A stretch of DNA of 47,781 nucleotides from Nitrososphaerales archaeon (GTDB lineage Archaea > Thermoproteota > Nitrososphaeria > Nitrososphaerales > CADDZS01). The notes under the pieces were generated by a model. It saw only the letters and a list, made by a program, of their open reading frames with translations, made no database searches and was not told the DNA's origin. The stretch covers positions 1 through 47,781 of the forward strand of contig JASHPO010000071.1 of NCBI GenBank assembly GCA_030038075.1, read 5' to 3'. Numbering within the stretch: position 1 is the first letter of the stretch; each line of letters begins with the position of its first letter. Below, piece by piece: positions 5,325-46,389 of this stretch. The position numbers were made by a program, and so were the translations under genes.

Positions 5325-5510
5325 ATGGCCGGCGGCAAGGAAAAGGTCATCATAGCGCTGGGACTAATTGTCTTGGCGCTAATATTGGATCTCACTTCCT
5401 ACCAATCTCCGCTGGCTCTAGGGCAACTTTTGATCTCATTCGCGTTCGCGATAGCGGGCGCGCTGGTCGGCATCCGCGGGCTGGTAGATTTTCTCGCGGA
5501 GCGTTGCTAA
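5325..5510 (+). CDS. Small two-helix membrane protein
   Basis: A 61-residue protein starting MAGGKEK, with two hydrophobic helices (about 8-24 and 30-52) and a short polar tail. It overlaps the 3' end of the convergent ABC ATPase gene by four bases. It resembles the short membrane proteins of unknown function common in thaumarchaea, but I cannot name a family. A longer reading from 5229 is possible but would run antisense to the nuclease gene and lacks support. Confidence 0.55.
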   Translation: MAGGKEKVIIALGLIVLALILDLTSYQSPLALGQLLISFAFAIAGALVGIRGLVDFLAERC

Positions 5511-6499
5511 TACAACCAGCAGGATACCCAGTGACCCTCTTCAATTTGTTTTAGGTGCGGAACCTCCTTTGAACAGATTTCCATCGCATACGGACACCTC
5601 GGGTGAAACTTGCACCCCGATGGATGAGCGGTTCCCTGTGGAATTTCGCCCCTAATGTTTATTTTTTTTATGATTTCCCGCTGACTCGTGTCGATGTTCG
5701 GAGAAGCCTCGAGAAGGGCTTTCGTGTAGGGATGCAGCGGTGTGTTTACGACTGCATTCGTAGTTCCGAGTTCGTCAATTTCCCCGAGGTACATGACAGC
5801 GATGCGATCCGCGATCGAGCTCGCAACGGCCATTTCGTGAGTGATGAACAGAAACGCAACTCCAAAGTCCGCAGCTATTTTTTTGACAATGCTGAGTATC
5901 TCCCCCTTCAGAGATACGTCCAGCATCGAAACGGGTTCGTCAGCGACTACGAACAGTGGGTTAAACAGTAAAACGCGGGCGATGCCGATTCTCTGCCTCT
6001 GACCGCCTGAAAGTTGAAAGACATAACTTCCGAGAATGTCTTCCGATAGTCCCACGGCTTCGAATACCTTGTTTATTCTCTCGTCGATCTCTTTTCTGTC
6101 ATTTACGCCTTGAGCCTGCAGAGGGATCCGTAACGTGTCGTAAACCTTCATGTTCGGGTCAATGGAAGAGAAAGGATCCTGGAAAATTATCTGCAATTTT
6201 TTCCTGAGATTCTTCCATTGTCTGCCCTTTGCGGCTGAGACTATTATTTCGCGGTCTCCGTCCCGGAGGATGATGCTACCGGAAGTGACTTTCGTGAGGC
6301 CGATTGCCGCCCGTCCGAGCGTTGTCTTGCCAGAACCGCTCTCGCCCACTAGCCCTAGAGTTTCTCCTTTGCGAATTTCAAGACTGACTCCATCAACGGC
6401 CTTTATCGTCTTTCGCTTCTGCAGAAAGGGTTTTTTTGTGAAATCAACGTGGACGTCCTTGAAGGCAATGACGGGTTCTCTAGTAGAGCCAGCAGGCAA
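5507..6499 (-). CDS. dppF: Peptide ABC transporter ATPase, OppF/DppF type
   Basis: A 330-residue ATP-binding subunit that powers a type I importer at the inner membrane face. Walker A is GESGSGKTT (~52-60), the signature is LSGGQRQR, Walker B is FVVADEP, and the D-loop is followed by the H-loop ITHE. The C-terminal oligo/dipeptide-transporter extension has a cysteine cluster (SGCKFHPRCPYAMEIC ... SCWLY) like that reported to bind a 4Fe-4S cluster in some Dpp ATPases. It overlaps the upstream ATPase gene by 20 bases and is the last gene of the operon. Confidence 0.9.
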   Translation of the reverse strand: MPAGSTREPVIAFKDVHVDFTKKPFLQKRKTIKAVDGVSLEIRKGETLGLVGESGSGKTTLGRAAIGLTKVTSGSIILRDGDREIIVSAAKGRQWKNLRKKLQIIFQDPFSSIDPNMKVYDTLRIPLQAQGVNDRKEIDERINKVFEAVGLSEDILGSYVFQLSGGQRQRIGIARVLLFNPLFVVADEPVSMLDVSLKGEILSIVKKIAADFGVAFLFITHEMAVASSIADRIAVMYLGEIDELGTTNAVVNTPLHPYTKALLEASPNIDTSQREIIKKINIRGEIPQGTAHPSGCKFHPRCPYAMEICSKEVPHLKQIEEGHWVSCWLY

Positions 6500-7418
6500 C
6501 CTTCTGTTTCTCCTTGACGGTGAGTAATTTCGGTTCCGAATTTTTGCATATTTCCATCACGTGTGGGCAACGGCTGGCGAAGCTGCAGCCAGGTGGGAGA
6601 TTTGCGAGATCCGGCATGTACCCGCCAATTCCTTTGATATGCAAATTTTTCAATGTAGGTATTGAAGCTATCAATCCCTGCGTGTAGGGATGTTTAGGGC
6701 TGTTGAATATCTCATCGGCCGAGCCGACCTCGACCGCCTTGCCGGCATACATGATGTAAACTCGATCAACGATTTCTGAAAGTAGAGCGAGATCATGCGT
6801 GATGAGCAGTATCGAGATCTTCTTGTCGAGCCTAAGTTTCTTTAGCAGATTGATGATGCTCGTCTGGGTAATTACATCAAGCGCCGTCGTCGGTTCGTCT
6901 GCAATCAAGAAATCCGGATCTACCGCGAGTGCCATCGCGATAAACGCGCGCTGTTTTTGCCCGCCGGATAGTTCATGCGGATATCTTGTGGCTGTCTCCG
7001 AATCTAGATCGACCATTTTCAAAAGATCATCAAGCCTCTTTTTTCGATCGCCCATGTAGTTGTGTATCTCCAATACTTCGTTGATCTGATAGCCGATCGT
7101 GAAAACAGGGGTGAAACCATTCATCGACCCTTGGAAGATCATTGCAATTTTTTTCCAGCGATACTTCTCCCGAAATTCCTCCGACTGAATCTTAAGCACG
7201 TCAGATCCATCGAAGAACACATTCCCGCCGGCAATCCTTCCGGGCCGCATGATGAGTCTTGAGATAGCAAGTGCGAGCGTAGTTTTACCGCAGCCGCTCT
7301 CACCGGCAAGGCCCACGACTTCGCCTCTATCAACCGTCAGATCCATCCCGTCTACGGCTTTGACATCTCCTCTAGCGGACGAGAAGTACACCTTCAAGCC
7401 GCTCACTTCGAGCATCAT
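6480..7418 (-). CDS. dppD: Peptide ABC transporter ATPase, OppD/DppD type
   Basis: A 312-residue ATPase partner of the preceding subunit. Walker A is GESGCGKTT (~36-44), the signature is LSGGQKQR, Walker B is FLIADEPTTALD and the H-loop is ITHD. The C-terminal oligopeptide domain has four conserved cysteines (PGCSFASRCPHVMEIC and ACWLY). Its start overlaps the permease stop by four bases, typical of translational coupling. With the adjacent permeases and binding protein it should form a peptide or other small-solute importer. Confidence 0.92.
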   Translation of the reverse strand: MMLEVSGLKVYFSSARGDVKAVDGMDLTVDRGEVVGLAGESGCGKTTLALAISRLIMRPGRIAGGNVFFDGSDVLKIQSEEFREKYRWKKIAMIFQGSMNGFTPVFTIGYQINEVLEIHNYMGDRKKRLDDLLKMVDLDSETATRYPHELSGGQKQRAFIAMALAVDPDFLIADEPTTALDVITQTSIINLLKKLRLDKKISILLITHDLALLSEIVDRVYIMYAGKAVEVGSADEIFNSPKHPYTQGLIASIPTLKNLHIKGIGGYMPDLANLPPGCSFASRCPHVMEICKNSEPKLLTVKEKQKVACWLY

Positions 7419-8794
7419 TTGTTGCTGACCCGAGGGGCTATGATCCTCTCAAGAGCAAAGCCGATCAGCACGAACGGCACTGCTGTGACTATAATCATCA
7501 GCCCGGGAAAAGTGACCCACCACCAAAAACCGTACAGCGCCGCCTCGTTCGCAAATGCGGCATCCAGTATGGAACCCCACGTTATGAGGTTCGGCGGCTG
7601 GATGCCGAGGAATCCCAAGGTCTCAGCCAGTATGATCCCCGCAGGTATAGTGAGAACCGTGTAGGCAATCGAAACAGGAATCAGTCTCGGCATGAAATGA
7701 GTGAAGAAAGAACGTAGAGCGGGTACGCCCATTGCCTTGTCTGCTTCGATGTAGGTCTGCGATTTGATCGAAAGTGAAACGGTGCGTGCTATTATGGCAA
7801 AGAATGGCCACGTCAAAAAGGCGATAAGCAGCGACTCTATCGTTAAAGAGAGCGTGACCGTGTAGGACAGTGCGACCAAGAAAGGAAGAGCTGGGAGTGC
7901 GAGGAACACCAAAGTTACCCACTGCATGACGCCATCCTTTCTCGCCCCTAGATATCCGGAAATCCCTCCAAATATTACGCCGCCTATTACTGCGACGACC
8001 GAGGTCAGCACCCCGAGTTCGATTGCGTTTGGCAAGCCAGCCAATATTCCCAGAGTAATCGGTCTTCCGAGGTAGTCCGTTCCCATTGAACCGTAAGAGT
8101 TGCCGAGAACAACCAAGAGCGAGCTCGTCGACATGTTCAAGGGAGAAGTAGCGATGACTTGAACTGTGACTTTGTAAACGCCTGACTCAACCGCACCTGA
8201 AAGAATGCTTGATCCGTTCTTGTCGAAAAGCGCGTCCACGACCTGCGATGGAGACGGGGACGCAACGTACTCATTTGTCTGAGTGAGAATGTATTGCGCC
8301 GCCGCCGACTTGAAACTTTGCGTTTCAGCATCGTATTCGTTACCGGTCTGAACCGCCGGAATTGAAATCTGGATCGAGATCCCGTCTGGTTTCGTCCATG
8401 TGATCGTGCCCGAAAGCGCGCTATTTGCGAAGATCGGTAGAAATATAACGTCCTGCGGGGTCGAAGGAGAATTCCACGTAAAGTCAAACGAATTTGAATA
8501 TTCAAAGACATCCGATGAACCTGAAGCGAGCGATACGCTCCAAGGCTTCAGGGATGTACTAATTGTAGGAGAAACCTTTTCGCCCAAGTAGTTTACCCAT
8601 GTCGGTGGAGCGTGTATCGGATTTGTAGTCCAGTTTGCAGGGTTCTCCCACTTTACGTAGATATTCCCTGGTATAGTTGCGAGTGAATACACGGCAAGAG
8701 CTAGCAAAATCAGAACAAAGCCTACTCCCACCTTGCCCGATTTTGATTTTAGAAGTTCCTTCCCTACTGTTTTCCAAAGACTCTCCGTTTCAAT
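7415..8794 (-). CDS. dppC: Peptide ABC transporter permease, DppC type, with large external insertion
   Basis: A permease of roughly 460 residues. A first helix (~18-36) is followed by about 200 residues of polar sequence that should lie outside the cell. The conserved BPD permease core follows, including MGTDYLGRPITLG and the EAA loop (YIEADKAMGVPALRSFFTHFMPR). Typical DppC proteins are nearer 300 residues. The start is uncertain: no ATG, GTG or TTG fits at the junction, and the in-frame ATT at 8794 overlaps the preceding TGA stop. An in-frame TTG at 8860 would give a 70-base overlap with dppB. Confidence 0.85.
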   Translation of the reverse strand: METESLWKTVGKELLKSKSGKVGVGFVLILLALAVYSLATIPGNIYVKWENPANWTTNPIHAPPTWVNYLGEKVSPTISTSLKPWSVSLASGSSDVFEYSNSFDFTWNSPSTPQDVIFLPIFANSALSGTITWTKPDGISIQISIPAVQTGNEYDAETQSFKSAAAQYILTQTNEYVASPSPSQVVDALFDKNGSSILSGAVESGVYKVTVQVIATSPLNMSTSSLLVVLGNSYGSMGTDYLGRPITLGILAGLPNAIELGVLTSVVAVIGGVIFGGISGYLGARKDGVMQWVTLVFLALPALPFLVALSYTVTLSLTIESLLIAFLTWPFFAIIARTVSLSIKSQTYIEADKAMGVPALRSFFTHFMPRLIPVSIAYTVLTIPAGIILAETLGFLGIQPPNLITWGSILDAAFANEAALYGFWWWVTFPGLMIIVTAVPFVLIGFALERIIAPRVSNK

Positions 8795-9848
8795 CGCTCC
8801 CCGTTTTGATGCGCGGATCGAGCAAACCGTACACAAGGTCGCCGATGTACAATCCCACAAGTAGGAATATCGTCAGCACGAACGTGATTCCTATTATGAC
8901 TGGAACGTCGTTTGCGATGACGGCCTCGTAGGTCAAGAGACCAACGCCTGGCCAGTTAAACACGATCTCGGTCGTGAGGCTTCCTGCAAACGATCCCGTA
9001 ACTGCAAGTATCGACTGAGTCGTGATCGCTGGAGATGCAGTCCTGAGAACGTGCCGGAACATTATTCGCGATTCAGAGATCCCCCGTGCCCTAGCCGTGA
9101 GAACAAAATCCTCCCCGATGGTCGAAATCACCAAGCTTCTAATCACGTAAGCAAAGCCGCCCAGTCCGACGATCAAAAGGGAGATCAGAGGTAGCGTCAT
9201 GTGGTCCATGACGCTCCCCACGTAGAAGATTGGGTTATGAGGCACCGGCACCGAAGTGATACCCGAGCTGGGGAATAGTTTGACGCTGTAGGCAAGGCCT
9301 GCAATAAGCAAAAAACCGAGCCACCAAGCCGGTAGGCTGGAATGTACCACAGCAACAAATGGTACGAGTCTATCCCATACGCTGCCCGCCGATCTTGCAG
9401 CGAGCAATCCGATTACCGTTCCTATCAAAATCAGAAGCAGTGTACCGGTTGTGAAAAGTAATATCGTGTTTGGAAGGTATGCCCTGAGTATCGCTGAAAC
9501 GTCAGTGGAACCGCTGGGCGCTCGCAAGAAATACGCGTTGCCAAAATGAAACGTCAGAAGCTTGATTATTTGCAGCGAAAATTTCTCGGGGAGCGGTTTG
9601 TTGAAACCAAACTGCGAAAGGTAAGTGGCTTTGTATGTCGCAACGAGGTTGGATATCTCTTGGTTCGTCAGATCGCCGGTATTGTGCTTTAGAAGTTCCT
9701 CCTCGTATTGGCCCGCTACAAAGTTCGCCGATTTGGTTATCACCTCCTGAATTACTGGATAAGTTCCAAGGTAGAGAATCGAAACTGTGGCCATTAGAGC
9801 TAAAAAATACGATACTGTTTTCTTCACCAAGAAAGCGAGATAGCCCAA
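8790..9848 (-). CDS. dppB: Peptide ABC transporter permease, DppB type
   Basis: A 352-residue permease with an N-terminal signal-anchor helix, an external stretch of about 80 residues, then five membrane helices of the BPD_transp_1 domain. The EAA loop is seen in DFVLTARARGISESRIMFRHVLR, followed by the typical FNWPGVGLLTYEA segment and the C-terminal LLDPRIK motif. It is the first gene of the dppBCDF cluster, 185 bases downstream of the binding-protein gene on the same strand. Confidence 0.92.
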   Translation of the reverse strand: MGYLAFLVKKTVSYFLALMATVSILYLGTYPVIQEVITKSANFVAGQYEEELLKHNTGDLTNQEISNLVATYKATYLSQFGFNKPLPEKFSLQIIKLLTFHFGNAYFLRAPSGSTDVSAILRAYLPNTILLFTTGTLLLILIGTVIGLLAARSAGSVWDRLVPFVAVVHSSLPAWWLGFLLIAGLAYSVKLFPSSGITSVPVPHNPIFYVGSVMDHMTLPLISLLIVGLGGFAYVIRSLVISTIGEDFVLTARARGISESRIMFRHVLRTASPAITTQSILAVTGSFAGSLTTEIVFNWPGVGLLTYEAVIANDVPVIIGITFVLTIFLLVGLYIGDLVYGLLDPRIKTGSD

Positions 9849-10033: not shown

Positions 10034-12736
10034 TTAGCTCGTGGACGGCGTGGCTGGAGGAGGTTGTGCAGGGGCTGGCTGGGCTGCCGGTCTTCTCCTC
10101 ATCGCAAATACCACACCGATGACCACTATCACTACAACTACTGCCGCGATGACATAAAGCGTAGTATTGCTAGAGGTCGTCGTGGTAGTGGCGGTGGAAC
10201 TGCCAGTCGAAGTAGTTGTCGCCGATGATGCGGTAGAAGATACTACCGTCACAGAGGTCTGGTACGGGTTGATTAACGATGAATTTGAAGAAGAGGAATA
10301 GACTGTCAACGAATAAGTTCCCGTAGCGAGCGAAGAAGGAATGTTAAACGTCGCCGTGCCTCCGCTTACCGACGTAGCCGTTTCTTGAAGTACTACCGCG
10401 TTGTTAGAGACGAATTGAGCTACAGCGTTGACTCCTGCTTGCGGCACTGAATGGTTGGAACCTATTACTGTCGAAAGCGTGGTAACTGTAAATGTACCTC
10501 CCTGTGTCAGGACCGATGGTATCGAGGTGCCATCAGTGGTTATGCTTGTTGCCTGCGCAAACAGTTGCGGGGGGAAAACCGCTCCGGCGTTGAAGTATGG
10601 ATTCTTTGTCAGGATTGCATAGTTCGGCGTGTTGGTGGTTTGGTACGCCGATACATAGAACGGACCGTCGCTTATAAGGGCGTTTCCGTTTGTCGAAATG
10701 AAGCTAGTCTCGGCAGTATAGCCCGACGCTGCAGAGCTCGCGTTGACAAGAGTTATGCCAGTCAATTTCGCGAGTTGTGTGAACTGGGCCGGTACATATG
10801 AGGTTGAAGCGTAGTTGGACAGCGCAGTATCTATCGATGCCACATCCGTTGGGCTAACCAAGCTCAGCCAGTCTATACCCTCCGACTGCGCCGTCGCCTC
10901 GTCCCAGGCTGCCTTTCCTGAAGCGACGACATTCGACATTGCCTGGTACAACTGCCAGGGGAACATGTTACCACCCGGTAGCGCATATCCTAGAGGGAAC
11001 ATGTCGGTCACAGCATTGTATACAGCGAAATTCGAGTCGGGGTAGAAGTACGAAGAGTAGATCTGAAGAGTCGTTGAATTCACAATATTGAAGCCGAGGA
11101 CGGTGCTGAGATCTGGCGCGTAAATGCCATTGGCAGAATCGTAAATGGGACTGTTGGTATTGAATGTGGCGTTTTCGGCGACGACATACTGATAGAGCAT
11201 GTCTGCGAGTGTGATAGGCTGTCCGTCGTCCCACTTGTCGTTATTGAACAGTGGAGCGAAATTCGCAGTGACAACCGTTTTTGCGTCAGTCCCTGCAGGC
11301 ACGTTAGCAAAGTCACCAGTAGTATAGTTGTAATACAAGGCGCTTGACGGAACGGCGATGTTTGCGGTATCGCTTATGCTATTCAGTTGAGTATTGATTC
11401 CTATTAGGTAAGGATAGCCGGTACTCGGCTGGTAATAAAACAGCGGAAGGACAACCCCGGCTGCTAGATCCACACTATACAGATCTTGAAAACCCTGGAA
11501 CGGATTCGAAGATCCTTGGTTTAGGTATCTGACTCCGATGTCTACCTTCCCGGTGGAGGAAGTCATTGTCAGGTATGATATCGTATTCAGAACAGGAGAC
11601 TCTACGAAATTCGGAGTAATGTTGGAGACTAGGCTAGGATTGTAGGCGTACGCAGCAAGCGAAGTCGCCAGCCAAATTCTGGTAGACAATTGGAAGCTTA
11701 GAGCAGTCAGGTTTTCAAGTAATGAAGCCCTCTGGGCAGTGTTGTTAAAATTCCCAGAGAGCAGAGACTCGTCGATTTGATCCGCTTGATTTGACGTCGA
11801 AATTAGCGAAGCATTTTCGTAGGCCGAATCGTTAAACTCTCCCATAGCAAGACCGTTCGAATCGCTGTAAGGAGGCAGTTCGCCAATTGCCCCGGTGAAT
11901 GTAGCGAGTAAGCTTTCATCGTAATAGCCGTACACGCCGCCCCACTGCTCAACGGCAAGATCCCAAGTGGCATTGACGGGGTCGGAACCGTAGATCAGAG
12001 AATTCTGCACTGAGAGGTCGCCTTGTTTGATTGAAACAGTGAAACCAAGAGTAGTAAGCTGGTTCGCCAGAAATCCTGCATAAGTTTCTCTAACAACATC
12101 GTCTGTTCTCTGGAAGACGTAGACCGTAATTGGACTACCTTGATACATCCATTTTCCGCTTGATAGAGTGGCACCGGCGGCGTGCAAAACCGGGTAAATT
12201 GTTGCGTTAGCTTCGGGGATACTGTAATTGTAATAACCGGCGTACTGCGCAGTCACATTGGACACCGTGAGCGTATCAGGTTCGCCGGAGTACGGGGTAA
12301 TGCCGGCGATACCGTTCCCGTCAAGTAACGTGGAGCTGCTGACGAAGTAGCTTCTGTCGACTATATAGTTTAGAGCCTGTCTGACCTGAGTGAACTGGAA
12401 GGGGTTAAAGCCAAAAGTCGTGTTTGTTGGATTTACCAGAACATCGTACAAGGCGTAGGGCACTGAGAGCGTACCAAAACTTGAACTCAATTCGGATTGC
12501 TCGGTTGAAGTAAGAGCGTAATCGTATGAAGCTATCTTGCCCGCCTGAAGGTCAGCGATTGCTGAAGAATCTACTCCGTTATAACTTGTAAGTGTAATTT
12601 GGCTAAGGCCCGGCGAGCTTGGATTAGCGGCCGTGGAATATGAGAGATTCCCGAAATTAGTGGAAAAAACTTGGAGCGCGAAAAGAGCGAGAACGGTTAC
12701 GACTAGAATTCTAACGACAGTTCCGGGTCTGGTCAT
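10034..12736 (-). CDS. dppA: Membrane-anchored substrate-binding protein of peptide ABC transporter, permuted SBP family 5
   Basis: A 900-residue extracellular solute-binding protein with a signal segment (~8-27), a long ectodomain, a Ser/Thr-rich linker (~830-855), one transmembrane helix (~857-877) and a basic, proline-rich tail. Family-5 motifs are present in unusual order. The C-terminal-half motif (VRQALNYIVDR, ~118) comes before the N-terminal-half motif (KWDDGQPITLADM, ~497), and the SDGPFYVSAY segment follows at ~687. A beta-sandwich-like domain precedes the stalk. The position upstream of dppBCDF and the shared strand support the role; substrate unknown. Confidence 0.88.
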   Translation of the reverse strand: MTRPGTVVRILVVTVLALFALQVFSTNFGNLSYSTAANPSSPGLSQITLTSYNGVDSSAIADLQAGKIASYDYALTSTEQSELSSSFGTLSVPYALYDVLVNPTNTTFGFNPFQFTQVRQALNYIVDRSYFVSSSTLLDGNGIAGITPYSGEPDTLTVSNVTAQYAGYYNYSIPEANATIYPVLHAAGATLSSGKWMYQGSPITVYVFQRTDDVVRETYAGFLANQLTTLGFTVSIKQGDLSVQNSLIYGSDPVNATWDLAVEQWGGVYGYYDESLLATFTGAIGELPPYSDSNGLAMGEFNDSAYENASLISTSNQADQIDESLLSGNFNNTAQRASLLENLTALSFQLSTRIWLATSLAAYAYNPSLVSNITPNFVESPVLNTISYLTMTSSTGKVDIGVRYLNQGSSNPFQGFQDLYSVDLAAGVVLPLFYYQPSTGYPYLIGINTQLNSISDTANIAVPSSALYYNYTTGDFANVPAGTDAKTVVTANFAPLFNNDKWDDGQPITLADMLYQYVVAENATFNTNSPIYDSANGIYAPDLSTVLGFNIVNSTTLQIYSSYFYPDSNFAVYNAVTDMFPLGYALPGGNMFPWQLYQAMSNVVASGKAAWDEATAQSEGIDWLSLVSPTDVASIDTALSNYASTSYVPAQFTQLAKLTGITLVNASSAASGYTAETSFISTNGNALISDGPFYVSAYQTTNTPNYAILTKNPYFNAGAVFPPQLFAQATSITTDGTSIPSVLTQGGTFTVTTLSTVIGSNHSVPQAGVNAVAQFVSNNAVVLQETATSVSGGTATFNIPSSLATGTYSLTVYSSSSNSSLINPYQTSVTVVSSTASSATTTSTGSSTATTTTTSSNTTLYVIAAVVVVIVVIGVVFAMRRRPAAQPAPAQPPPATPSTS

Positions 12737-12872: not shown

Positions 12873-14168
12873 TTATTGCACTGGCGGCAGTTCTCCTACG
12901 CTGGACACGACCGGCTCGATATTCTTGCTGAACAAGTTTGGTACAAAGGTAATCAGCAAAAGCGCCATCCAGGGCGTAACCTCGCGAGGGATAAAAAGCA
13001 GAATCAAGCTAAAAGCTTCGAAAATGATTGCACCCTTTCGCGAAGAGAATAAGGGCAATGCAAGAGGAGTAACACCCGCGAAATAATACTTGTAAACGCC
13101 CCTCCCAAAAAACGTGAAGAAGAGGAGCAGAGCCGTAAACAAGTACAAAATATAATCGTTCGTCGTGAGCTTCCTCCTCGTGAAATACAGATGTAGGATG
13201 AGAATAACGTAGGCTATCGCGAAAATGTAATTCAGGTACGCGTATGTATCAACGGCGAGCCATTGTAGGTTCGCAAATTTTACGAGACCCAGAAAAGTCG
13301 TTAGCCTAGTTGGCTGAGAGAGGTTGTAGACAAAAGTCGTGGGCGTGGAAGGTCCAGCGCCGGGCGGATTTCCAAGAATCGGAAACTGGAGTGCCCAGAA
13401 ATACGTTTGCGGTTTTTGAAAAATGTAGGGGGTAGAGATCAGTATCAGTGACGCAACGTAAAGTGTAACAAACGCTATTGTCTTTTTCGTAAAGCCGACA
13501 GTCTTCAACATGATCACCAAAAGAATCGGAATAAGAATTACGGCAGTTTGCTTGAAACCGGTTGACACCGCAAGCGCAAGCGAAGAAAAGATCCACCTTT
13601 GCTTTAGGAAAAAGTAAATTCCGAGCATCAGAAAGAAAGTGGTCGGACCAGGGTTTAACCACATCAAGTCATTGTAAAACAAATTTATCGGATTGAAGAT
13701 CCAGAAAAGCGAAACCGCGAAAGCCACCTTGCTGTTACCCGGAAATAAAAATTCCTTTGCTATGAGGTAGATCGGAATCACCGTTAGGGCGTCGAACAGG
13801 ACAAGCGCGACAGCTGGAGACCAAGCGAGGCCGTCAAGTGCAAAAGCTGCCAGCGTATAGAGAAACAGGGGCGGGTAGTTGTAAACTATTGGAAGATTGT
13901 ACGCGCTATCTCCCGAAAGAAAGGGATTGACTAGGCATTTCAGGTAAAGATCTCGATAGTCAGTGTAGGCTTCCAGATCAGCCAGAGGAGAATTATAAAC
14001 TGGAAAACCAGAAGTTGAAGAGCCGCATGAAGAGAGCTCCGCCCTCGTTGAGGAAATCCCAACAATGGCCAATCCTATAAGGAAAATCCCGAATTTCGCG
14101 ACCAGAGAAAGCAATAGGGTCCAGTTGAAACTGAAAAAGTTCCTCTGGCTAGCCATGGCCAAGCTCAT
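12873..14168 (-). CDS. GT-C-fold membrane glycosyltransferase, putative
   Basis: A polytopic protein of about 430 residues with roughly ten membrane helices. The first external loop holds acidic positions (DLEAYTDYRDLY) and is followed by NYPPLFLY, the layout of lipid-phosphosugar-dependent mannosyltransferases of the GT-C class (DUF2029/PIG-M-like). It probably adds a sugar to a lipid or glycoprotein at the outer face. The ATG at 14168 is preferred over the one at 14219, because the latter would overlap the start and promoter of the divergent gene at 14213. Confidence 0.65.
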   Translation of the reverse strand: MSLAMASQRNFFSFNWTLLLSLVAKFGIFLIGLAIVGISSTRAELSSCGSSTSGFPVYNSPLADLEAYTDYRDLYLKCLVNPFLSGDSAYNLPIVYNYPPLFLYTLAAFALDGLAWSPAVALVLFDALTVIPIYLIAKEFLFPGNSKVAFAVSLFWIFNPINLFYNDLMWLNPGPTTFFLMLGIYFFLKQRWIFSSLALAVSTGFKQTAVILIPILLVIMLKTVGFTKKTIAFVTLYVASLILISTPYIFQKPQTYFWALQFPILGNPPGAGPSTPTTFVYNLSQPTRLTTFLGLVKFANLQWLAVDTYAYLNYIFAIAYVILILHLYFTRRKLTTNDYILYLFTALLLFFTFFGRGVYKYYFAGVTPLALPLFSSRKGAIIFEAFSLILLFIPREVTPWMALLLITFVPNLFSKNIEPVVSSVGELPPVQ

Positions 14169-14182
14169 CTCTGGAGAATGGG

Positions 14183-14189
14183 TTTTAAG
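14183..14189. promoter_or_regulatory. Shared bidirectional TATA-like element
   Basis: TTTTAAG on the plus strand lies 24-30 bases before the ATG at 14213. Its complement CTTAAAA lies about 15-25 bases before the minus-strand ATG at 14168. One element could serve both divergent genes. This is inference from spacing. Confidence 0.4.
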
Positions 14190-14212
14190 CCTATGATGCG
14201 AAATGACAGAAG

Positions 14213-14356
14213 ATGCCATTTTATTACGATCCGGCGTTTGAGTGGGGTCTCATTATTGCGATTGCAGGTATCTCGGCAATAGCAGCGACTGTTTCTATTC
14301 TATTGCTCCCTGAATCCAATGAGAGGGAACAGAAAGCTACTGATATTACGGCGTGA
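14213..14356 (+). CDS. Small single-span membrane protein next to the respiratory locus
   Basis: A 47-residue protein: a short acidic N-terminus (MPFYYDPAFEWG), one membrane helix (~13-35) and a charged tail (PESNEREQK). A TATA-like element lies at the right distance, and another membrane-protein gene follows after six bases. Its proximity to the cytochrome b and Rieske genes suggests an accessory role in that complex, but nothing in the sequence proves it. Confidence 0.6.
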   Translation: MPFYYDPAFEWGLIIAIAGISAIAATVSILLLPESNEREQKATDITA

Positions 14357-30299: not shown

Positions 30300-30540
30300 G
30301 TGGTGGGGCTGAGCTCGATGCTGGCGACATTCGGGAATACTCTCTGGTTTTACTTTCTTCCGGTGTATTACATGCAGGAATTCGGCGCCACGCCGTTTGA
30401 ATATTCCGACAATACCCGCGCTGGTCGTCAGCGGGTACCTCCTCTCAATAAAGCCGCAGCTACCCTTTTACGCAAACTCCATAATGGGAGCGATTGCACT
30501 GGTTTTACTGCTTGTTTTCACTCGAAAGTCGCCATCATGA
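30300..30540 (+). pseudogene. MFS transporter remnant with large internal deletion
   Basis: The frame from GTG 30300 (open further upstream) reads like the first helix of a major facilitator (LATFGNTLWFYFLPVYYMQE). Near 30400 it becomes unlike a membrane protein. In a shifted frame the sequence IPTIPALVVSGYLLS and IMGAIALVLLLVFTRKSPS reads like the last helix and C-terminus, ending at TGA 30538-30540. About ten helices are missing between them, so the gene has lost its middle and is inactive. Its old stop overlaps the start of the next gene (ATGA). Confidence 0.7.
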
Positions 30541-30956
30541 TTTATACCCGCACGGATTTCAGAAAAAGCGTCTTGTCCGAAAAACAATCTCTCGAATCCA
30601 GGAAATACGAGTTTACGGTCGACGGCACGATGCCCGTTCTGGAGTTTGACCTGAGCGCCGGGGATGAAAAAGAGAAATTACATCTGGAATTGTACAATCC
30701 GCTCTCTAACGAAATCTTTGAAGCTAAATTTGTCAAAGGCAGGCTCGAAGTGGACAGGGACGGTTCCATCACCTATTTCACGACCAGCGCTGAAGAGGTA
30801 AACGTTTCTTTGTTCTGCGGAAGAAATCTGACAATCAAATTGACGAAAAGCGGAGACGTCACGATAAAGACGCCCTCGAAGATAGTTTTGATCGAGGAAG
30901 ACAGGCCCAGGACTAATGGAGTCACCTCTGACACCGTCAAGCTCAAGCTAAAGTAA
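30537..30956 (+). CDS. Hypothetical protein formerly coupled to an MFS transporter
   Basis: A 139-residue soluble, strand-rich protein with charged residues throughout (MIYTRTDFRKSV, VLEFDLSAGDEKEKLHLELYNP). The ATG overlaps the stop of the MFS remnant, so it was once translated as the second gene of that operon, and loss of the transporter may affect its expression. A longer in-frame reading starting in the remnant is misleading. It ends directly against the convergent Nop10 stop. No family is recognised. Confidence 0.6.
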   Translation: MIYTRTDFRKSVLSEKQSLESRKYEFTVDGTMPVLEFDLSAGDEKEKLHLELYNPLSNEIFEAKFVKGRLEVDRDGSITYFTTSAEEVNVSLFCGRNLTIKLTKSGDVTIKTPSKIVLIEEDRPRTNGVTSDTVKLKLK

Positions 30957-44691: not shown

Positions 44692-46389
44692 TTAACTTTC
44701 GCTTTCGTACTCTTCGACGAGATCGTGAGCTCTGTCCACCAGAGAGTTCGTTTGACCTTGCAGCCTTCTTTCGTTGCCTTGCTGGACTCTGTTGAAAGTT
44801 TCCTCCTTCATTTTCTTTGAAATTAACTGGTCATAGGCGTTCAATGTATCTCGCACGGCACGATCGAATTCTCTGTCGTTCGCCAATACCTCGTTTATAC
44901 CCGCTTGAACCGTAGTAGTAATTCCGCTCGAAAGTTGGGACCTGATCTGTCCTATCCTTGAGTTCGTCTTTGATCTGACCTCATCAATTCTGGATCTAGT
45001 AACCACTAAGTCGTTTCTTCCGAGGGAGGTACCTTTCGCCTTCAATTCAGAGAGCAATTCGTTAGTACTGGAGACCTTTTCCTCGACGGCTTTGACCAAG
45101 TTATCGAATATAGAACCGGCACCCTCGGTCTCTGGCTTTGGTCTGAAGACAACTGCTGCTACGAAGACACCGATGAAAAGTATCGCGGCAATCGGAAGAG
45201 CATCTGCCGTCGCTGACGCAATTCCCACTCGGAATTGAAGGGAAGCGCTTCCTGTTCCTGTCTCATTGGCAAATGTGGCCGACTCCGATAGCTGCTTTCC
45301 CATTATTTTCACCCCCGGTACGGAAGTGGAGATGATTTTGTACGAATCAACTATCCCACCGACCGGCACAGTTGTCGGTATCGTAATTGTATACACACCG
45401 TTGGAGACCTTCCAGTACTGGCTTGCAAGTGGATATTGAAATATCAGAGTCGCAGCGCTGTTTGGCTGAATTTCTTGGTTCGTGTCGTTCAGTCCAATTA
45501 CGTCTCCGCTCATAGAGATCGGGGCGATGTTGCTCAGCGGTGGTTCGTTAGCAGGTACAGCTGTAAGATTACCAGATATAGATAGCGGGGTGTATTGCAG
45601 TTCTGAAATGGTGTTGAGCCCTAAATTATCCAAGTTTATTGTGTCCTTTACGATGATTTGCCCGCTTGCGGCGATCGAGAGCTGCCTTGTAATGGAAGTA
45701 AAGTCCAGCGAACCCGAGTTATACGGAGTGGACAGAATCTGTACGCCAAAGGCATTGAGAGTAGAGTTAGGGCTGGCTGTGGTGAAATTCCAAGTTTGGG
45801 TGGCTTGATTTACCGATATGAATTGCGCGAATCCAACGTCTGTCAAAGCCGTGGTATTTGAGACCGATGTGTCTTGATACGGAAAGTCCACCTCGGTATA
45901 GATATTGGTCAAATTAATGCTTATCGACGGACTGTCTAATACCGGAGCAACGAAGTAACCAGAACTGTTTACTGCGATGAGCGAATCAAGTACCCAAAAG
46001 GATAATCCCGCCGTGGCGTTTGGGCCGCTCAGGCTGCTCGCAAATGAAAGAGTAATCTCAACGGTATTGTTTGAAACGCTTGTTGACGTGGTCGTGCTAA
46101 CTGTCGTCGAGCCCTGATCAGCATACGCGCTGAGGGCAACGAGGTGAGCCTGATAAGAAGAAGGAAAACCAAAGGTAACAGAACTCAAAGCCGTAGCATT
46201 GCTAGAACCGTAAAGAGTCTCATTCACCTGAAACTGCCCATAAGGGTTGTAGGTCTGAATATTGTCCAAAGAATACCCAGTAGCAGATGATTGTGCCGAG
46301 GTATGGGAGACAAGGCTTGAACCGAATGCGCCTAAGAGCAAAGTTGTGAAGAGAATTAATGCCACTAAAAGAGACATCTTAGAAGGCAT
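44692..46389 (-). CDS. Large surface membrane protein, weakly ribophorin I-like
   Basis: A 565-residue protein: signal peptide (~8-33), a beta-rich ectodomain of about 340 residues with many N-x-S/T sites, one transmembrane helix (~395-415), then a cytoplasmic region of about 140 residues predicted to be helical/coiled (EEKVSSTNELLSELKAKG, MKEETFNRVQQGNERRLQGQ). Segments such as FQYPLASQYWKV followed by YTITIPTTVP recall ribophorin I/OST1 and may point to a glycosylation-linked role, but this is a weak impression. Possibly a surface sensor or S-layer-associated protein. Confidence 0.6.
   Translation of the reverse strand: MPSKMSLLVALILFTTLLLGAFGSSLVSHTSAQSSATGYSLDNIQTYNPYGQFQVNETLYGSSNATALSSVTFGFPSSYQAHLVALSAYADQGSTTVSTTTSTSVSNNTVEITLSFASSLSGPNATAGLSFWVLDSLIAVNSSGYFVAPVLDSPSISINLTNIYTEVDFPYQDTSVSNTTALTDVGFAQFISVNQATQTWNFTTASPNSTLNAFGVQILSTPYNSGSLDFTSITRQLSIAASGQIIVKDTINLDNLGLNTISELQYTPLSISGNLTAVPANEPPLSNIAPISMSGDVIGLNDTNQEIQPNSAATLIFQYPLASQYWKVSNGVYTITIPTTVPVGGIVDSYKIISTSVPGVKIMGKQLSESATFANETGTGSASLQFRVGIASATADALPIAAILFIGVFVAAVVFRPKPETEGAGSIFDNLVKAVEEKVSSTNELLSELKAKGTSLGRNDLVVTRSRIDEVRSKTNSRIGQIRSQLSSGITTTVQAGINEVLANDREFDRAVRDTLNAYDQLISKKMKEETFNRVQQGNERRLQGQTNSLVDRAHDLVEEYESES

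Follow-up and report, generated by a model that had tools for sequence, protein, structure and literature searches.

The window, that is, the whole 47,781-nucleotide stretch of DNA analysed here, carries at positions 10034-12736 of the minus strand a gene with an ATG start that encodes a 900-residue protein. Its open reading frame, its match to PF00496 and its alignment to PDB entry 7fi3 identify a circularly permuted SBP_bac_5 protein, in which the canonical C-terminal half of the substrate-binding protein (SBP), here half B, precedes the canonical N-terminal half A. The chain begins with a hydrophobic segment that is likely a signal peptide (residues 1-36, 12629-12736; helix 4-23 in the AlphaFold2 model). 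Half B follows (residues 41-383, 11588-12616) and contains VRQALNYIVDR at residue 118 (12353-12385). Half A (residues 384-720, 10577-11587) contains KWDDGQPITLADM at residue 501 (11198-11236) and, later still, SDGPFYVSAY at residue 689 (10643-10672). A predicted Ig-like beta-sandwich spacer (residues 728-833, 10238-10555; modelled strands 730-832, pLDDT mostly 79-94), which gave no Pfam match in this copy, leads into a Ser/Thr-rich linker (residues 834-858, 10163-10237; low pLDDT over 837-862) and a C-terminal transmembrane helix (residues 859-880, 10097-10162, also a helix in the model) with a MRRRP tail. A first-pass annotation had described the same interval as a membrane-tethered 900-residue protein; its coordinates are correct, the hydrophobic N-terminal segment and C-terminal helix bear out the tether, and all three motifs occur in the sequence and order it gave, except that KWDDGQPITLADM had been placed at about residue 497.

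The permuted SBP gene heads an OppB-C-D-F operon, with four genes lying directly after it on the same strand. These encode an OppB/DppB-type permease (8790-9848; PF00528, 1.3e-36), a 481-residue OppC/DppC-type permease (7415-8860; PF00528 on residues 294-479, with a stretch of about 200 residues before the permease domain), and OppD/DppD-type (6480-7418) and OppF/DppF-type (5507-6499) ATPases, each with ABC_tran and oligo_HPY domains. The two permeases and two oligo_HPY ATPases that characterize an Opp/Dpp importer thus adjoin the gene. Just upstream of the SBP gene, positions 12873-14219 (minus) encode a protein that spans the membrane several times and matches ALG3 mannosyltransferase weakly. 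Elsewhere in the window, a large secreted or membrane protein (44692-46389, minus) and a 218-residue open reading frame (30300-30956, plus) had no Pfam match.

We compared the protein with PF00496 in both half orders, as the first-pass annotation had proposed. The native sequence matched over residues 41-281, corresponding only to profile positions 145-362 of 368 (1.1e-15; 58.1 bits against a cut-off of 32.4 bits), whereas reordering the halves to A-B in silico produced one continuous match over positions 28-362 and raised the score from 58.1 to 77.4 bits. An NCBIfam search returned weak partial matches only, and half A searched alone against Pfam gave no match, though profiles locate it clearly. 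Against the PDB, single-sequence phmmer aligned residues 415-702 with residues 29-295 of 7fi3 (1.7e-14) and residues 109-266 with residues 401-567 of the same chain (1.5e-5), in swapped order. This entry is TkOppA, the oligopeptide-binding protein of Thermococcus kodakarensis, crystallised with a pentapeptide; like the window protein it is archaeal and of the long type, and both halves align over nearly its whole chain, but its order is the canonical A-B. A 22-sequence family profile covered 7fi3 in two swapped-order stretches, 18-309 and 314-722 (E 5.5e-99). For half B, A1 profile 33-373 corresponds to 7fi3 314-722 (163 bits); for half A, A1 profile 387-678 corresponds to 7fi3 18-309 (178 bits) and the A3 profile to 7fi3 20-305 (E 3.1e-48).

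The protein therefore has a significant match to SBP_bac_5 (cluster C) and contains each canonical half once, but its order is B-A rather than the canonical N-to-C order, making it a circularly permuted variant and not a standard family member. The bacterial proteins DppA, OppA, NikA and AppA belong to the same Pfam family, PF00496, with profile matches to 1xoc, 1dpp and 1uiu; unlike the window protein, they are A-B in order, about 500 residues long and devoid of the C-terminal beta-sandwich and membrane helix. Because the early motif lies within a true C-terminal half, its position is not coincidental. Taken together, PF00496, the 7fi3 profile alignment and the in silico reordering agree with the circular permutation first proposed from the motif order, and we regard it as virtually certain that the gene encodes one complete family-5 SBP with its halves in B-A order.

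An AlphaFold2 model of the full chain, built from a 22-row alignment (mean pLDDT 79.7, pTM 0.77), contains the beta-sandwich at residues 730-832, the disordered Ser/Thr-rich linker and the C-terminal helix at 859-880. Foldseek ranked 7fi3 first, aligning 337 columns of its 724-residue chain; since Foldseek keeps sequence order and cannot detect a whole-chain match of a permutant, this partial match is as expected. Half A modelled alone (pLDDT 87.5) aligned with 7fi3 over 335 columns (TMq 0.74, rmsd 2.9), and half B was placed on 7fi3 by sequence. These half-by-half matches and the AlphaFold2 confidence suggest that the full chain would adopt a single compact two-lobed fold.

We then surveyed how widely this order occurs. 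The source genome encodes nine PF00496 proteins, of which only the window protein is permuted, the other eight (8/8) starting at profile positions 1-11 as canonical members do. The window protein was matched by 44 of 61 relatives, some of these matches touching the C-terminal tail only. In the first locus set, all family open reading frames (112/112) were in B-A order; they came from ammonia oxidisers, Caldisphaera, Acidilobaceae, Geoarchaeota, Nezhaarchaeota, Chloroflexi and one Spirochaetes MAG, and the same order was found in named records of Nitrosopumilus, Nitrosarchaeum, Nitrosotenuis and Caldisphaera. A phylum-wide search at E <= 1e-8 matched 267 of 398 genomes, with long collinear B-A copies in at least 139 of the 398 (all 150 matches listed were of this kind). 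The B-A arrangement thus occurs in no fewer than one in three of the species sampled from the phylum, and its carriers are abundant archaea, including ammonia oxidisers. Among 201 Chloroflexota genomes, 19 had a single long collinear match, and in two others the match was split into two collinear pieces (about 21/201). Neither this breadth, Chloroflexota included, nor the repeated change of order described below had been anticipated in the first-pass annotation. In one Chloroflexi MAG, a tandem pair of permuted SBP genes precedes genes for B, C and an ATPase (L102:5410-10310).

The linker from B to A is short and nearly constant (median 20 residues, 5-95% range 20-25, n=158). A second permuted group consists of shorter proteins, mostly of about 610-800 residues, that share the cut of the long type and show two PF00496 stretches in swapped order; the profile of this group aligns, again in two pieces of exchanged order, with many canonical SBPs of known structure. 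Its loci (L171, L167, L175, L178, L211-L231, L261 and L262, the last two from two group f35 genomes) span many families of the phylum. A different SBP_bac_5 permutant was found at L232:661-2835 (minus), with order B2-A-B1, a cut inside half B and a PF00496 score of 293 bits; an MG2-type (Ig-like) domain and a membrane helix follow its binding domain.

To follow the half order through the family, we used a tree of 84 reordered sequences, with groups named by gene order before tree building. At least four order changes were needed on this tree, whose canonical sequences came largely from a single phylum. Topologies uniting all permuted proteins (AU p 7.1e-7) or the permuted long proteins (AU p 4.8e-5) in one clade were rejected. 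In the careful tree, canonical TkOppA and L168 grouped with four permuted proteins (100/98), and none of its bootstrap trees united the permuted long proteins; separate half trees gave six order changes for A and four for B. Because the order does not track one clade, it changed several times, and the permutation seems to have arisen more than once. It is possible, at rather less than even odds, that archaeal family-5 SBPs underwent permutation on a number of separate occasions, several of them at a shared seam and one or more elsewhere, and that every event was accompanied by a folded C-terminal stalk and membrane helix, as a recurrent move of the tether point that left the fold unchanged. 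It is also possible, if somewhat doubtful, that one ancient permutation founded all permuted proteins and that the canonical long proteins (TkOppA, L168/L169 and L163) are later reversions: long and short types share the cut site and the beta-sandwich spacer, and a single switch suffices once the canonical long proteins are removed from the tree. Such a history, however, would require at least three separate reversions, each losing the spacer between half A and the anchor, is at odds with the rejection of both permuted clades, and leaves the L232 cut to have arisen separately.

In the permuted protein, the canonical C- and N-termini are joined by the short constant linker, and new termini open at the seam between the end of half A (GP-Y...NP-Y) and the start of half B (the strand before an ALQAGK-type sequence). 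The resulting chain, in the order signal peptide, B, A, beta-sandwich, linker and membrane helix, would fold into one two-lobed binding protein held on the membrane beside the OppBC pore. A likely route is tandem duplication and trimming, from AB-AB to B-A, no intermediate of which was seen. Between the binding domain and the C-terminal helix lies a spacer with a median of 131 residues in the long and 114 in the short permuted proteins, compared with about 15-34 in the canonical ones sampled; members of each permuted group share ancestry, which confounds this correlation with order, and the canonical sample is small (n=17). The spacers of the two permuted groups look related (profile hhalign E 1.8e-6). 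From the longer spacer we infer that permutation may have shifted the membrane attachment away from the canonical C-terminus and onto the A/B seam, the site of the folded spacer; this relocation might itself be why the proteins permuted, a suggestion we make with reserve.

The gene neighbourhood points to a role in import. The order SBP-B-C(-D-F) recurs in relatives, often with the permuted gene first, and several relatives have SBP-B-C without D/F alongside. An alternative, which we judge unlikely, is that the protein is a surface receptor or scavenging protein without a tie to import, since in many ammonia-oxidising archaea the gene is unlinked to OppB/C: at many Nitrosopumilaceae loci (L042, L044, L046, L058, L061 and others), OppB/C were absent within 8 kb of the permuted SBP gene. 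A PF00528 search nevertheless found OppB/C-like pairs elsewhere in the complete ammonia-oxidising archaeal genomes checked, countering an orphan status, and OppB-C-D-F come immediately after the gene in the window and are again its neighbours in relatives. A PF19300 search of Nitrosopumilaceae gave no match and is uninformative, as PF19300 also misses the window's own OppB. It is very likely that the window protein serves the adjoining importer. The ligands of family-5 proteins also include sugars, nickel and heme; the one here is probably an oligopeptide. Overall, we assign a probability of roughly 0.85 to the protein being the extracytoplasmic SBP, with a circularly permuted fold, of an ABC importer of the Opp/Dpp type that most likely takes up oligopeptides.

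A natural precedent is TpMglB-2 (Tp0684), a circularly permuted glucose-binding protein termed 'type Ic / cluster Bc', whose authors suggested a link between permutation and tethering (PMC4990184). Both it and the window protein are tethered binding proteins of ABC importers that underwent circular permutation in nature; TpMglB-2 differs in being bacterial, of type I/cluster B fold, sugar-binding and cut elsewhere, whereas the window protein is archaeal, of family 5/cluster C and anchored at its C-terminus. The best sequence and fold matches of the window protein are cluster C proteins, which places it outside cluster Bc. The authors of that study also considered that the permuted part had been acquired from another gene (PMC4990184), and the first-pass annotation had likewise allowed for a fusion of two half domains. 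Halves A and B of different SBP genes might have been joined in B-A order, and the two half trees do differ in detail (six versus four order changes). The nearest relatives of the window protein are nevertheless identical in the separate half trees, and the family profile finds the same best PDB chain for both halves. Permutation thus stands, and a fusion as its genetic route is improbable.

The length of the protein, 900 residues against about 520 in bacterial OppA, could suggest a pair of full SBP domains, or SBPs fused in tandem whose halves are poorly recognised. This very improbable reading was rejected, as we found one A match and one B match whose two stretches cover 7fi3 once; the halves, one copy each, total 683 residues, close to the roughly 700 of canonical-order TkOppA, and the extra length is made up of beta-sandwich, linker and membrane helix. 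An assembly artefact or frameshift is negligibly probable even though the source genome is an incomplete draft of 170 contigs, because the B-A order is conserved in single-contig genomes of 97-99% completeness from many families and in the named Nitrosopumilus, Nitrosarchaeum, Nitrosotenuis and Caldisphaera records.

Circular permutation is unexpected in a family so large and well studied. Open-access full texts yielded no report of a circularly permuted family-5 SBP, and the one paper naming both circular permutation and SBP_bac_5 did not link the two; absence from open-access texts does not prove novelty. As annotation models see mainly half of the permuted proteins, it is easy to misjudge how far these proteins range and what they bind. 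The order has switched repeatedly, and canonical proteins stand next to permuted ones among close relatives; this amounts to a natural experiment on the causes of protein permutation, and bears as well on how a surface-anchored binding protein must be oriented towards the ABC pore.

The OppC-type permease of the window (7415-8860, minus) and its ammonia-oxidising archaeal homologues, of about 450-500 residues, share a further feature, in that the stretch of about 200 residues is Ser/Thr-rich and probably extracellular. The unusual binding protein could dock at this stretch.
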